64,000 bases of DNA. It comes from Pilasporangium apinafurcum (lineage: Eukaryota; Oomycota; Peronosporomycetes; Pythiales; Pythiaceae). Below, in pieces: positions 58,679 through 64,000 of the stretch. Made by a program: the position numbers and the translations under genes. The DNA lies in assembly GCA_001600495.1 (NCBI GenBank), contig BCKE01000059.1, forward strand, positions 137,575-201,574. The letters run 5' to 3'. Below the pieces are notes generated by a model, which saw only the letters and a list, made by a program, of their open reading frames with translations, did not search any database and was not told the DNA's origin. Each line of letters begins with the position of its first letter. Position 1 is the first letter of the stretch.

Positions 58679-59042
58679 TTAGGATTCATTGGATGGAGAG
58701 ACTCCTTAGTGGCTCTTGCTGCGTGCGCAAGCATCTTGAAAGACCATGTTGACGATCAATCGCGTTTCCAGAAAAATGAAATTATACACCTTGGGTGGGG
58801 AAAAAAGATATATGGAGTTGGAAAAATCAACTCTTGAATGAATCGTTTCAGGCTTCTCAATAGCGAAGCGTATTGAATTCAAGTATTTACTACCTCACGT
58901 CCTAGCAGCCATCCATTGAGTGTTGCTTCAACACCATTTGCCAAGATAGAAAGAACTGCAGCTTTGAGAAATAGCATAATCAAAGGCACCGAAAAAATCA
59001 AACCAACTACGAGGCGTCCTTGTTTTTGGATGTTATGATAAA
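58679..59042. other. Degraded sequence upstream of the AKR remnant
   Basis: Between the AKR remnant and the Fanzor start. Around 58730-58790 the minus strand reads FLETRLIVNMVFQDACARSK in one frame, perhaps a further decayed part of the reductase. Nothing intact. Confidence 0.35.
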
Positions 59043-60423
59043 ATGGCATCAACGAGCGATGGTATTGAAGAGAAGACCACTAAAAAGCGGAGAGCCCGCC
59101 CGGATTTTGCGGAACGGAAAGTTCGACAAAAGCAAAGCGTGTACACCACTGTGAAGACTGGCTGGCGAAAGTTCTCCAAAGACAAAAGAATGGCGGAAAA
59201 GATTGATGAGGCTGTGCGAGTTTGTTCAAAAATAGCATGTGAGGCATCCATGCTGGCATCCGTCCATGTTCTGCGATTATTGGAAGCTGGCAAAGAACTT
59301 CCTCCATTGGATAATGACTTCTTCAATCGATGCACATCTGCAATAGCCAACTTGACCGGCAACAGAAAGGTCGTCAATCCTGAATTGGAAACCAGTCGGA
59401 ATATTTACATGGACCAGTACCCTTCAGTTTATGAACCGACAGAGAAGAAATCCTATATGACTCAGATGTTGGTCCTGATCGCTCAGCACGCAAGACAGAA
59501 TTTTCAAGTCAGCAACCGATTGACGTTCTACTCCCGGTTGTGTAAGTGGATGCACCTGCAGATACGTCTTCACAACAGTGACTATTTTGAAAAGCACCAA
59601 GGCAAGATAATCAAGAGTGCTGTTTCATTGCTGGTCCGTGCAAGCACCCAAACTCAGCATAGCTTATCCAACCTGATGCCTGCGTACTTCAGGTTCAAGA
59701 AGTATCCCATCCCTACTGAGAAGATTGTTTGGATGCAGGAGTTATCGGATAGAGTGAGAAACGAGATCGGACCGCTGCCACTCGACTTGAACAAATCATC
59801 GGAACGTCACATACCCTTTCTCCGCACAATGTTGAAAGACACAAGCTCACGTGGATGATGGAATGAAGGGTTGCCAAGTCTGGTCTCTGCTTCCACAGAA
59901 ACACTTCAAACCCATTTTCATCAAGATCAATACCACCGTCCTGAAGGAACTTGCTAAGGCTTTGGGTGACCCTTTCGAGCTTTACGCCGACAAAGCTGAG
60001 TTATGGCGCATGTACTTCAATATAGATCTTGTGACCAAAGACAAGCGAAAGGAGTTTGAGCACTTCATCTCGACCGACGGTATGTCAGTTTGACAATCTC
60101 CCGTCCAAAGCTTCTCGCGAGAGAGCAAAAAGAGACATTTTCTCTTGAAGACTGGATCTTTGGTTTAGACCCGGAAAGAAAGAAGATCTTCACTGCTGTT
60201 GTCTACAAAGAGGAAAGCATGACTACATTGCAAAAACCGAAAGGAGAGAACGTGGAATATGAAGTCATCCACTGGTCTAAGGGTCGTTTCTACAGAGAGT
60301 GCGGCTACCATAGACGAACAAAGTTGACCAAAGAGTGGATTGATGCTGAGCCTGACATCAAAACCTTCAATGAAAACATTCCTTCGGCAAAAGTTGCGAA
60401 CCTTGTCTCCTATTTGAAACGGG
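59043..60423 (+). pseudogene. Fanzor-like (eukaryotic TnpB family) RuvC nuclease, frameshifted and truncated
   Basis: Three overlapping frames: 59043-59858 (271 residues), about 59851-60090, and about 60090-60423. They join into one continuous protein if one base is removed near 59855 and one added near 60094. N-terminal region: helical, Lys/Arg-rich, RLTFYSRLCKWMHLQIRLHN. Middle: VWSLLPQKHFKPIFIKINTT and FISTDGMSV. Then the RuvC-I strand FGLDPERKKIFTAVV with its catalytic Asp (codon 60168-60170), followed by SKGRFYRECGYHRRTKLT ... EWIDAEPDIKTFNENIPSAK, typical of Fanzor after RuvC-I. RuvC-II, the zinc ribbon and RuvC-III are missing because the sequence breaks at the undetermined base 60424. 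By family, an RNA-guided DNA nuclease of mobile-element origin. Two indels suggest decay or sequencing error. Confidence 0.7.
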
Positions 60424-60424
60424 N
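60424..60424. other. Undetermined base: assembly junction
   Basis: Single N within the Fanzor frame. The coding similarity stops exactly here and the sequence to the right has a different character, so this is likely a contig join or collapsed gap rather than a simple uncalled base. Confidence 0.8.
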
Positions 60425-60893
60425 GAGATTTTGTCTCGTGTATTTGGATCGTCTTCTTGCCTTCTATTTATCAAGGCCGCCAGAGTGATCAGGATGCAGG
60501 AGCAGATCAGAACATGTATACAGATGCATATAGGATGCATAGAACGTTGCCGAGAACGTTAGATCAGAGAGTGCAGAATAATAGGTTAACCTGACTTGGC
60601 CATAACTACACATCAATAAACACTTTCCTTTCTACTCCAAGAAGCAGAGCAGCTACATGTGTTTAAGTAATCTGTCTATGCGATCCCGCAGCATTAACTT
60701 CCAACAACCTATCCATTGCAAAGGGCCTTGAAACAAGAGCACTATAATAAACCTGAACAATACGACTGTAGTATATTAGATCTCGACTTTAATGTAGTTT
60801 TTATCTTTCGGAAAGTGCAAATTCTTATGCACTTTTTTGTCAAACTCCTCACAAAGGTCTCGAGATTGGTCTCCTTTACAGTGTTCCTTATAA
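60425..60893. other. Non-coding segment, possibly LTR-like repeat remnant
   Basis: After the N, about 280 nt contain TCAATAAACACTTTCC (60611-60626) and end near ACTTCCAACA (60698-60707), features often seen near the 3' end of an LTR. No second copy, primer-binding site or polyprotein is in the window, so the assignment is weak. The remainder is AT-rich. Confidence 0.25.
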
Positions 60894-63638
60894 TTAAAGT
60901 TGGCATTTTGGATGATCCGTGAGGTACTTGTTGAGCTCCTTGATTGTTTTCTCGCTCGGATGACCATAATTCTGCCCATTGGTGCTGACGGCAATGACTT
61001 TCGTGTCAATAATTTTCAGCAGTTCGGAAGAATTGTTCAAATCTGATCCATGGTGAGGCATGTCGATGTAATCGAAGTGGTACTTGCCGTCAGCATCGAC
61101 TTCAGCAAAGTCGCAGTTTTTGAGGACTTTAGCAATGCCACCTCCGTCTGCGTCACCAGTAAATAGCAGTCGCTTGCCCTCGAGCTCAGCTATGGCTACG
61201 GTGCCGGTGTAATTGATTGGTGAAAGTTTCTGACTGCGCGCTGCGGCCTTCTTTAGATGCGTTTTCGCTTTTTTTAAGTGACTCGTTTGGTAGCAGGATT
61301 CGAATCACGTTGTTTTCAGACAGCTCAAACTTATCGTTCTGAAGTATTTTTGTTATCAAATTAGCAACTGCCGCTTTGTCTGGATCCTTTGATTTGTCTT
61401 TTTTTTGCTTCACAAGCGAACTTAGCGATGGTGTTGGCGTGAATCCAACCTCTTGTGGAGCCACTGCTTGGCCACCGTTCGTCGTCAGCTTGCACCAAGA
61501 GATTTCGAATGGAGGGGCCTTCATTTGGAAAGTGGACCTTGCGCTGCATAAACGCCCAAAATCCACTAGCGTGATCGACGTCACCGTGCGTAAGCAGCAT
61601 GCAATCTATCGTTGGCACAAAGCGTATGTACTTCCATGCAGCGAACGTTTTCTTATCACCAATTTTAAGATCGCTGTCTTTTATAAGATAGCCACCATCG
61701 ATAATAATTATTTTCCCAGATGGTGTTTGCACGAGCGAGCAATCACCTCCTCCGACCTGGAACAGGAATAGCCGAAATTTCCCATCACCGACAGGTGTAA
61801 AATCTTCAGGGCAATTGTCATTCTCAGACGGTAATGAAAGGGTATCCGCACAGCGCTTCTGATCCCAAACGGCCAAGCGGTGCACCGGCACCTGCTTGAA
61901 AAACTCAGCGTCAAGTTTATCAATATCAAAAGTTGGAGGTGACAGGTCGTACAAGGTTGGTAAAGCACCTTGTGCTCGAATTGGGCCGTGACATGTTGGC
62001 GTGATGTATACACTTTGTCCATTTTTCGATAGCCAATAACTGACAGAATTGCGTAGACCAACCCGTTTACGCTGCTCCACGATGCACTTAAGAAAGGCTT
62101 TTTCAAATTCAAGTTCGGGTTGCTTTGTCTCATCTAACGTGACGTTCACCAGATGTGGTAGCACTTTAAGATAATAATTCATCATATTACTCGACAAGTC
62201 TTTGCCTTTTGGATCCTTCATCATGTTCGCTGCAAACAAAGTGGCATGACAGCAATTGAGCAGCAGATGAAGGCGAGGAAAGTAAGTAATGAAAGAGCGA
62301 TCGAACGCACAGCGCAAACTGTGACCAGAGTACGGCCCATCGCGGAGTTCGATGTCACCGCACTCATTCCCGTGGCCAGAGTAGGCAAAGTGCACCATGG
62401 TTCCCAAGATATGTTCGTTAAACACCGCGATTTTTTTTTCGAGCTCAGAGCTGGTTGGGTTCCACACCACACGAACACGGGTTTTCGGATTTTTACGTGG
62501 AAAAAAAGTCGTAGTCCAACTGCTCGACCGGTATTTCTGTGGGGTTGTTAACAAACTTAACAGAGTGTCTTGGACATTTAACAAAGTCCATTACAAGTGC
62601 TTTTGCGTACAACCGCGATAAGCCAACAGCTTCAGCCATATAAAAGATATCTTTGACGAGGTCTGTCTCGAGGTAAATCGGATTGCCGACAATCAGCAAG
62701 CACTCGGTCTCGATTGTCTCTATCTGCAGCATTCTTTGATGTGCTGTCTGGACATTTTTGAGAGTGGGGGCCGACAGTTTGCGCGACACTACGCGCGAGT
62801 CACGGATGGAGAACAGGATGGCATCTGGCGAAGTGCCCATATCGAAATGGGAAAAATACTTTTGCAAGAAATGTGAATTGTCGATTTTTACAAAATAAGC
62901 TATGGCCGCTCTCGTAATCTGAAAGATAGCGTTGTCAAGTCCTGTAACCGCGGTATCGCTCATGAGGAGATAGAAATCGCGCGGAGTTGTGACGCCGGCG
63001 GGATTGTCATCTCGACGGAGGTGAGAACGTTCATGTTCATGGCCATATACGCGCAGCAACATGTGTAAGATCTGTGCCTGACACGACATCTTTTCGACGG
63101 CGTTTGGATTGACGATAGCTTCGTTTATTGCGTCAAGAAGACCGTCAAGGATTTGTAAAACTCCCGAATAATTAAAGTTGGGTTCATTCGCAGGTATTTC
63201 GTCATAAGCACACGACAGCACCTCTAGGACGTGATGCACATCGGCTACAGTAGGTTGGCTGGCTACTGGTATAATTGCAGACTTGAGGATCTTGATATGA
63301 ATTTCGCGAACGCGGCAGCAGAAAGCCTTGGCTTTTTCAGAGCTTTTAATAACGACTAATGACAGATAGAGCTGTTTGCACAGGGCAGCGAGATCCAGAC
63401 GTAATCTACATACATCGCTGAGCTGATCGCGTGGGCGCTGTAGTAGCGTGAGGACTACTTCGGCGTTGATATCTTCAGTATGAGGATTGCTGGACGACGT
63501 GAGCGGCAAAAGTTTACGTACGACCTTTTGCGTTTGCAGCATGCTTGATTGATCATTACCAGAGGATCTGATTTCGCAGAGGTGTTGAACGAAGTTGTCC
63601 CATTCAGACAACGGCGGAATATCGGATTCATTCTTCAT
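60894..63638 (-). CDS. Caspase-like plus ComEC-like metallo-beta-lactamase fusion, split by three homopolymer frameshifts
   Basis: No introns seen. From the ATG at 63638 (MKNESDIPPLSEWDNF) the frame is broken at A7 62501-62507, T8 61399-61406 and T7 61269-61275. Dropping one base from each run gives a single protein of about 913 residues. Residues about 1-300: helical, unrecognised. Residues about 305-480: caspase/metacaspase-like fold with ECLLIVGNPIY, VRVVWNPTSSELEKKIAVF, HFAYSGHGN (His about 421) and HLLLNCCHATLF (Cys about 460). Residues about 590-910: metallo-beta-lactamase fold of ComEC type, FQVGGGDCSLVQTPSGK, LLTHGDVDHASG, LLFTGDADGGGI, IDMPHHGSDLNNSS. Such pairings of peptidase and hydrolase are known from prokaryotic conflict systems; role here unknown. 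Frames are otherwise stop-free, so sequencing error is likelier than decay. Confidence 0.75.
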
Positions 63639-64000
63639 TTGTAGCTTTTGGAGAAATGGGAGTCGCCGTGACTCCCATTTCTCCAAACTAGCGATGCGAG
63701 AGACTCTCGTTACAGCAACTGTATTACAACAACACAGATGCTTATAAAGTCTCTTTGTGCAACTGTAACGGTTAATTTTTACTTAAGAATGCAACGTTAA
63801 CCGTACTGCAACACTAAAAAAAGGCACTCTGGGGTTATATGCCCGCATCTGAATTTTTCACGCTTACAAAATAAAATACATGTAAATTTCAAATTGGCGA
63901 AATATATTAACAAGCAATCCGCGAGCCAACGGTGCCAGTTTTCAGTTGTTTTCCTAAACTCAAAAAATCCGCAACTGCCTTTTAGCACATAATATTTTGG
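63639..64000. other. 5' flank of the caspase-MBL gene
   Basis: Contains a 17-nt inverted repeat GGAGAAATGGGAGTCGC / CGTGACTCCCATTTCTCC around 63652-63684. No gene is seen to the window edge. Confidence 0.4.

Follow-up and report, generated by a model that had tools for sequence, protein, structure and literature searches.

We describe here a gene of the oomycete Pilasporangium apinafurcum in which a predicted caspase-like peptidase domain is followed, within one reading unit, by a metallo-beta-lactamase (MBL) domain of the ComEC-like type. The gene lies at 60894–63638 on the minus strand of a 64,000-nucleotide stretch (positions 137,575 to 201,574 of contig BCKE01000059.1, assembly GCA_001600495.1; hereafter the window), where it is found in pieces in different frames. 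The fusion architecture and its conservation are near certain. Protein searches brought 24 family members besides those of the same genome, with the caspase-then-MBL order kept in oomycete, chytrid, and blastoclad. The architecture pointed out in the window by an earlier note, made from the sequence alone, thus recurs in chytrid and blastoclad proteins. As to its function, we favor a single-chain caspase-nuclease consisting of an N-terminal region, a clan CD His/Cys peptidase, and an MBL, activated by proteolysis for defence or cell death, to which we give about even odds (a probability of roughly 0.5).

One gene in pieces and its intact paralogue

The window copy consists of three main pieces, all on the minus strand. 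The first (62493–63638, from a Met at 63638) holds a mostly helical N-terminal region and the first caspase-like strand (LLIVGNP); its frame runs from stop to stop over 62493–63782 (429 amino acids), and its sole Pfam match, DUF1069, stays below cut-off (E 0.15). The second (61361–62590, 409 amino acids) carries the first MBL half and, before it, the greater part of the caspase-like domain, and the third (60894–61304, 136 amino acids) carries the second MBL half (PADLOC LmuA 1.6e-22, NCBIfam Avs1a 5.3e-20). These two are joined by a linking open frame with no Pfam match (61186–61605). Sequence and alignment place along them SGHG with the predicted catalytic His of the caspase-like domain (62369–62380), NCC with the predicted nucleophile as its second Cys (62249–62257), and the MBL motifs THGDVDH (metal binding, 61571–61591), TGDADG (metal-ligand Asp, 61143–61160), and HHGSD (His motif, 61041–61055). 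The spacing of about 40 residues between SGHG and NCC and the order of the MBL motifs after them, as reported in the earlier note, are all read from the window sequence.

What makes one gene of these pieces is a second copy found by searching the same genome (36.5 Mb, 136 contigs). On contig C33 lies a single open frame of 882 amino acids (841 from the first Met), to which the three window pieces align in order at 46, 52, and 50% identity (E 5.2e-34, 5.6e-116, and 2.3e-34), a collinear sequence match far beyond chance. Since this paralogue is a single frame carrying both domains, the window pieces represent one gene, as the earlier note had proposed, and not two separate genes; chance motifs in unrelated genes are ruled out likewise. 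The intact copies are uninterrupted open frames, in keeping with the absence of introns claimed for the window copy.

A third fusion gene, found via a Pfam MBL_MAP1B search, occupies a 650-amino-acid open frame on contig C131 (L031 628–2580) with the motifs SSHG, LNSCYS, THVDADH, and PHHGS. A profile of ten other members matches it with 98.4 bits in two collinear stretches (caspase 14.6, MBL 81.8), the shuffled controls reaching at most -0.6 among the 89 listed of 200 shuffles. Broken pieces of a relative of this L031 type are present on contig C9. With the C33 and window copies on the one hand and the C131 and C9 copies on the other, the genome has two fusion types, either of them present as an open copy and a broken one. 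Beside the intact fusion gene, towards the end of contig C33, a frame (L002 3–608) looks RNase H-like by eye, no family search having been made.

State of the window copy and its host

Each of the three frame changes of the window gene falls inside an overlap zone with an A/T run of 7–8 bases, so that the three homopolymers suspected in the earlier note are indeed present. The gene counts four homopolymer runs of at least 7 bases (7, 8, 9, and 7), compared with five, each of 7, in the 29.8 kb made up by 16 other long frames of the window. The A/T runs fit sequencing error or recent decay, and the window copy is either misread at these runs or a pseudogene, with the intact copy elsewhere in the genome. 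Compared with its intact counterpart, it ends in a stop about 40 residues early, the last residue in the alignment being 798 of 840. Its G+C content (0.465; paralogue 0.462) lies within one standard deviation of that of the 16 window frames (0.485, standard deviation 0.025).

Just 5' of the fusion gene lies a perfect 18-base inverted repeat with a 5-base loop (63647–63687), the arm of which has no second occurrence in the genome. On the other side, a frame-broken open reading frame without a Pfam match (58980–60488) belongs to a repeat family with 135 genome matches; many copies are 80–87% identical and many have stops, and the family is probably a mobile element. The sole N base of the window is at 60424.

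An oomycete host, as named in the earlier note, is well supported by the chitin synthase of the same genome, which scores 1770 bits against PDB 7wjm and 8k52 versus 359 bits for the next group; 7wjm we take to be a Phytophthora sojae protein, and 7xs6 a yeast one. A contaminant contig is unlikely, given the intact copy on a different contig and window genes of eukaryotic type (AA_kinase and Aldedh in one frame, a CCT motif, Gpi16, and ELMO/RUN/RhoGAP).

Family and conserved residues

The count of 24 members results from 7 plus 21 rows, minus P0004–P0006 (already counted) and P0025 (a ComEC). Members named to species are two proteins of Geranomyces variabilis (P0001 and P0002) and one of Paraphysoderma sedebokerense (P0024); an iterated protein search with the A2 profile brought only the two Geranomyces proteins. 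The remaining members derive for the most part from ENA and JGI, with contigs of up to 2.8 Mb.

Conservation was read from an alignment of 25 whole rows plus the three window pieces, counting the rows with letters at a given site. The His of SGH is kept in 24 of 24 rows, the window piece included (P0007 and P0023 have no letters there). The second Cys of NCC is present in 25 of 26, the exception being P0023, which begins at that place; in 4 of these 25 rows, the first Cys is replaced (by S, S, F, and A). The second Cys is therefore the likely nucleophile, as it is kept while its neighbor varies. On the MBL side, T-H-x-D-x-D-H is found in 26 of 26 rows and HHG in every row reaching it (P0018 ends before), while P0004 has N for the D of TGD.

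The caspase-like domain

In the structural model, the His follows strand 3 and the Cys follows strand 4, as in the caspase fold and as is characteristic of clan CD, and this model makes a caspase fold likely. Among sequence profiles, Raptor_N was matched by two of seven members (best 0.011), and alignment to plasmid caspases with hhalign gave a probability of 17.6% with both motifs in register. The structural match list of the full-length model is filled by the MBL and leaves room for other folds. Metacaspases, paracaspases, legumain, and Raptor resemble the fusion in predicted fold and His/Cys placement, whereas the sequence of the fusion stays below the Pfam C14 cut-off. To our knowledge, none of these four bears an MBL. 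No Peptidase_C14 was found in the genome by a six-frame, exon-by-exon search, a weak absence with the control positive in 1 of 14 genomes.

The MBL domain and its prokaryotic relatives

By its metal motifs and profile matches, the second domain belongs to the ComEC/LmuA/Avs1a-type MBLs. The intact copy matches PADLOC LmuA at 1.3e-35, RTasMBL at 1.8e-26, and Avs1a at 1.2e-24, and these best matches agree with the kinship to prokaryotic defence effectors suggested earlier; the NCBIfam Avs1a equivalog is matched at 100.9 bits, below its cut-off of 420. Judged by this kinship, the MBL of the fusion is probably a nuclease, more precisely a DNase. The family is common to Avs1a (AVAST), LmuA (Lamassu), HamM (Hachiman), and RTasMBL (DRT), among which the best PADLOC and NCBIfam matches are found. 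ComEC/Rec2 is a membrane DNA-uptake protein, the nuclease domain of which, unlike the fusion, has neither gating loops nor a caspase.

The closest known counterpart is Canu (CanABC), a bacterial antiphage system described in 2025 in which the MBL CanC is switched on by a caspase complex (Tuck et al. 2025, PMC12799240). That paper shows MBLs of this kind to be pro-nucleases with two gating insertions; in Hachiman and AVAST, the cut is made by a trypsin-like partner. CanA is MALT1-like with an Ig-like fold, a fold that was not seen in the fusion, where no search aimed at it was made. The pairing of caspase and MBL nuclease, which the earlier note put forward as a candidate for an undescribed system, had therefore already been published for bacteria, in separate genes. 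As described there, Canu and the fusion have in common a caspase-family protease and an MBL of the LmuA/Avs1a group, with the protease first and the nuclease second, as well as a first MBL loop of like size. Canu, on the other hand, is bacterial, has separate genes including a third one (CanB), and has a long second gating loop, whereas the fusion holds both caspase and MBL in a single 882-amino-acid frame with a second loop that is mostly short, and its MBL would be a pro-nuclease by analogy only. The other gated MBL nucleases likewise differ from the fusion in their long loops and in having the trypsin-like partner in another protein (PMC12799240).

Loop lengths were compared in detail, the first loop being counted between the metal motif and the anchor that follows it. 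It spans 35–49 residues in the 25 fusions, 29 in ComEC, 39–46 in the four CanC, and 58–77 in Avs1a, LmuA-like, NACHT- and S8-linked rows and Retli, the bacterial labels (e.g., LmuA) being assigned from gene neighbors. The second loop measures 19–31 residues in 24 of the 25 fusions and is long only in P0024 (109) and L031 (53), compared with 10 in ComEC, 34–79 in 14 bacterial rows, and 61–66 in the four CanC. From these lengths, most fusions appear to keep the first gate and a reduced second one; the linker or the caspase itself may gate the MBL in the fused enzyme.

In four trees of fusion versus bacterial MBLs, which are not mutually independent, the fusions form one side of a branch with supports of 98/98 (8 rows), 89/84 (12 rows), 100/99, and 99/97. 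With L031 added, the branch that parts the 13 fusions from the 16 bacterial rows has a support of 83/84, and L031 sits on the longest branch (2.14). The S8-linked rows adjoin the fusions at 87/85. Constrained groupings with a CanC-containing seven-row clade, LmuA, or Avs1a gave approximately unbiased (AU) p-values of 0.149, 0.168, and 0.227, respectively, so none was rejected.

Horizontal acquisition, as considered in the earlier note, does not emerge from these data: the fusions group apart from the sampled bacterial MBLs, their G+C content is ordinary, and limited scans brought no prokaryotic or viral carrier. Those scans of prokaryotic and viral contigs used one or two short peptide patterns, making the lack of a confirmed carrier a weak absence. 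Phage sequences searched with P0013 yielded no confirmed relative. On plasmids, the queries P0003, the C33 copy (L002), and P0013 were matched over the MBL part only, among the matches listed (for one query, 30 of 63 records), and L031 had no matches. Of 18 plasmid MBL neighborhoods examined, 16 are non-ComEC; among these are four annotated caspase/orf/MBL loci and two with an S8 peptidase directly before the MBL. In the latter two (L009 5798–8621 and L012 5366–8549), an S8 subtilase stands with an MBL of the type discussed here, adding a protease partner beside trypsin and caspase.

In the literature, no account of a eukaryotic caspase-MBL fusion was found; Burroughs and Aravind (2020), not consulted, could hold one. 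The main text of PMC12799240 has no word beginning with "fung", that of PMC10732462 contains neither "caspase" nor "metallo", and "lactamase" does not occur in the text seen of PMC7159879.

A proposed protease-activated nuclease and its alternatives

By analogy with bacterial Canu, the fusion may be a protease-activated DNase. An infection or damage trigger would be sensed by the N-terminal region, which may have a regulatory role, or by a partner. The trigger would bring copies together, and upon oligomerization the caspase domain would switch on and cut within its own chain, at a site in the linker or on a loop next to the active site of the MBL. The cut would free the MBL nuclease, and the resulting destruction of DNA would kill or arrest the cell. 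Trigger, oligomerization, cleavage site, and a role in immunity or death are inferred beyond the Canu analogy.

Critically speaking, several results weigh against this scenario. The caspase fold expected in the earlier note is predicted together with its His/Cys placement, but the domain model has a predicted local distance difference test (pLDDT) score of 67.8, and Foldseek alone returns no match for the domain at E ≤0.001, with the first caspase at rank 32, below G proteins. Pfam C14 (PF00656) was matched by one of seven members at E 0.13, and by none above cut-off. No trigger or sensor domain was recognized in the fusions. The size of the first loop is not special to CanC, as four further bacterial rows (Sbal175, Vibrio, Cupri_L010, and Agro13) have 39–45 residues. 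In 24 of 25 fusions, the second gating insertion, within which the bacterial proteins have a cut site, is short. Finally, the trees favor the CanC clade no more than the LmuA-, Avs1a-, or S8-linked nucleases.

The short second loop, with which the MBL may be open, agrees with two active enzymes that are merely held together. In such a protein no self-activation would occur: the caspase would cut other proteins, and the MBL would have a housekeeping role as a phosphodiesterase or RNase. Phosphorylcholine esterase and RNase J/CPSF73 types are indeed among the structural matches of the MBL. By sequence, however, its best matches are defence nucleases, and oomycete, chytrid, and blastoclad all show the two domains paired in this order; we regard such an arrangement as unlikely.

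Less probable again is that the fusion is cargo or a relic of mobile elements and that the window copy is a functionless pseudogene. The repeat-family neighbor at 58980–60488, the broken state of the window and C9 copies, and the shorter end of the former would fit, yet both types retain an open copy (882 and 650 amino acids, respectively) with the catalytic residues in place.

The least probable alternative, a scaffold or structural protein like those of the animal MAP1 family with enzyme-like domains used for binding, has against it the catalytic residues kept in the fusions, where the aligned MAP1S reads AGP and THAGADS.

Kinship with MAP1

The likeness to MAP1 on which such a scaffold would build is nevertheless real for the MBL, whose sequence kinship is good. 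Pfam MBL_MAP1B is matched by all 18 A5 members at E ≤1 (best 4.2e-15). With a cut-off of 37.6 bits, P0013 (55.9) and L031 (40.4) score above and the C33 copy (29.3), P0001 (33.2), and P0014 (36.7) below; of 17 proteins compared by bit score, 13 exceed the PF25281 cut-off. With the A5 profile, MAP1S is recovered from the PDB at 1.4e-9; in that alignment, AGP stands opposite SGH, in a stretch of 2.2 bits, and THAGADS opposite the MBL motif. With L031 as the query, the PDB had no match below E 1.

Kinship of the N-terminal part is a lead, weak but collinear. MAPB1_N is matched by 6 of 18 A5 members (best 2.4e-4 for P0019, 20.8 bits, below the 27-bit cut-off), over the strand-helix-strand-SGHG stretch of the caspase core in the five members with ranges seen, so that the order of MAPB1_N and MBL_MAP1B in the animal MAP1 N-terminus is that of the fusion. 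Animal MAP1 differs in that catalytic residues are lost in the aligned MAP1S. A link through the caspase domain was rejected, as the caspase-only profile did not find MAP1S (best match unrelated, E 0.53).

Implications

Taken at its widest, the proposal would be that eukaryotes have a single-chain caspase-nuclease module of their own, with which oomycetes and zoosporic fungi activate a DNase by intramolecular proteolysis in immunity or programmed death, and that MAP1 descends from such a fusion after the death of both active sites; as a whole, we consider this unlikely. What is new relative to bacterial Canu is that both domains are joined in one eukaryotic protein. If true, a one-chain Canu-like form in zoosporic fungi and oomycetes would add to the immune modules common to prokaryotes and eukaryotes, and it would offer a candidate for a death protease, joined to a nuclease of its own, in an oomycete genome with no C14 match (itself a weak absence). 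Protease-gated nuclease activation would become testable within one polypeptide, and the weak, collinear link to MAP1 would give a microtubule protein family a testable origin.
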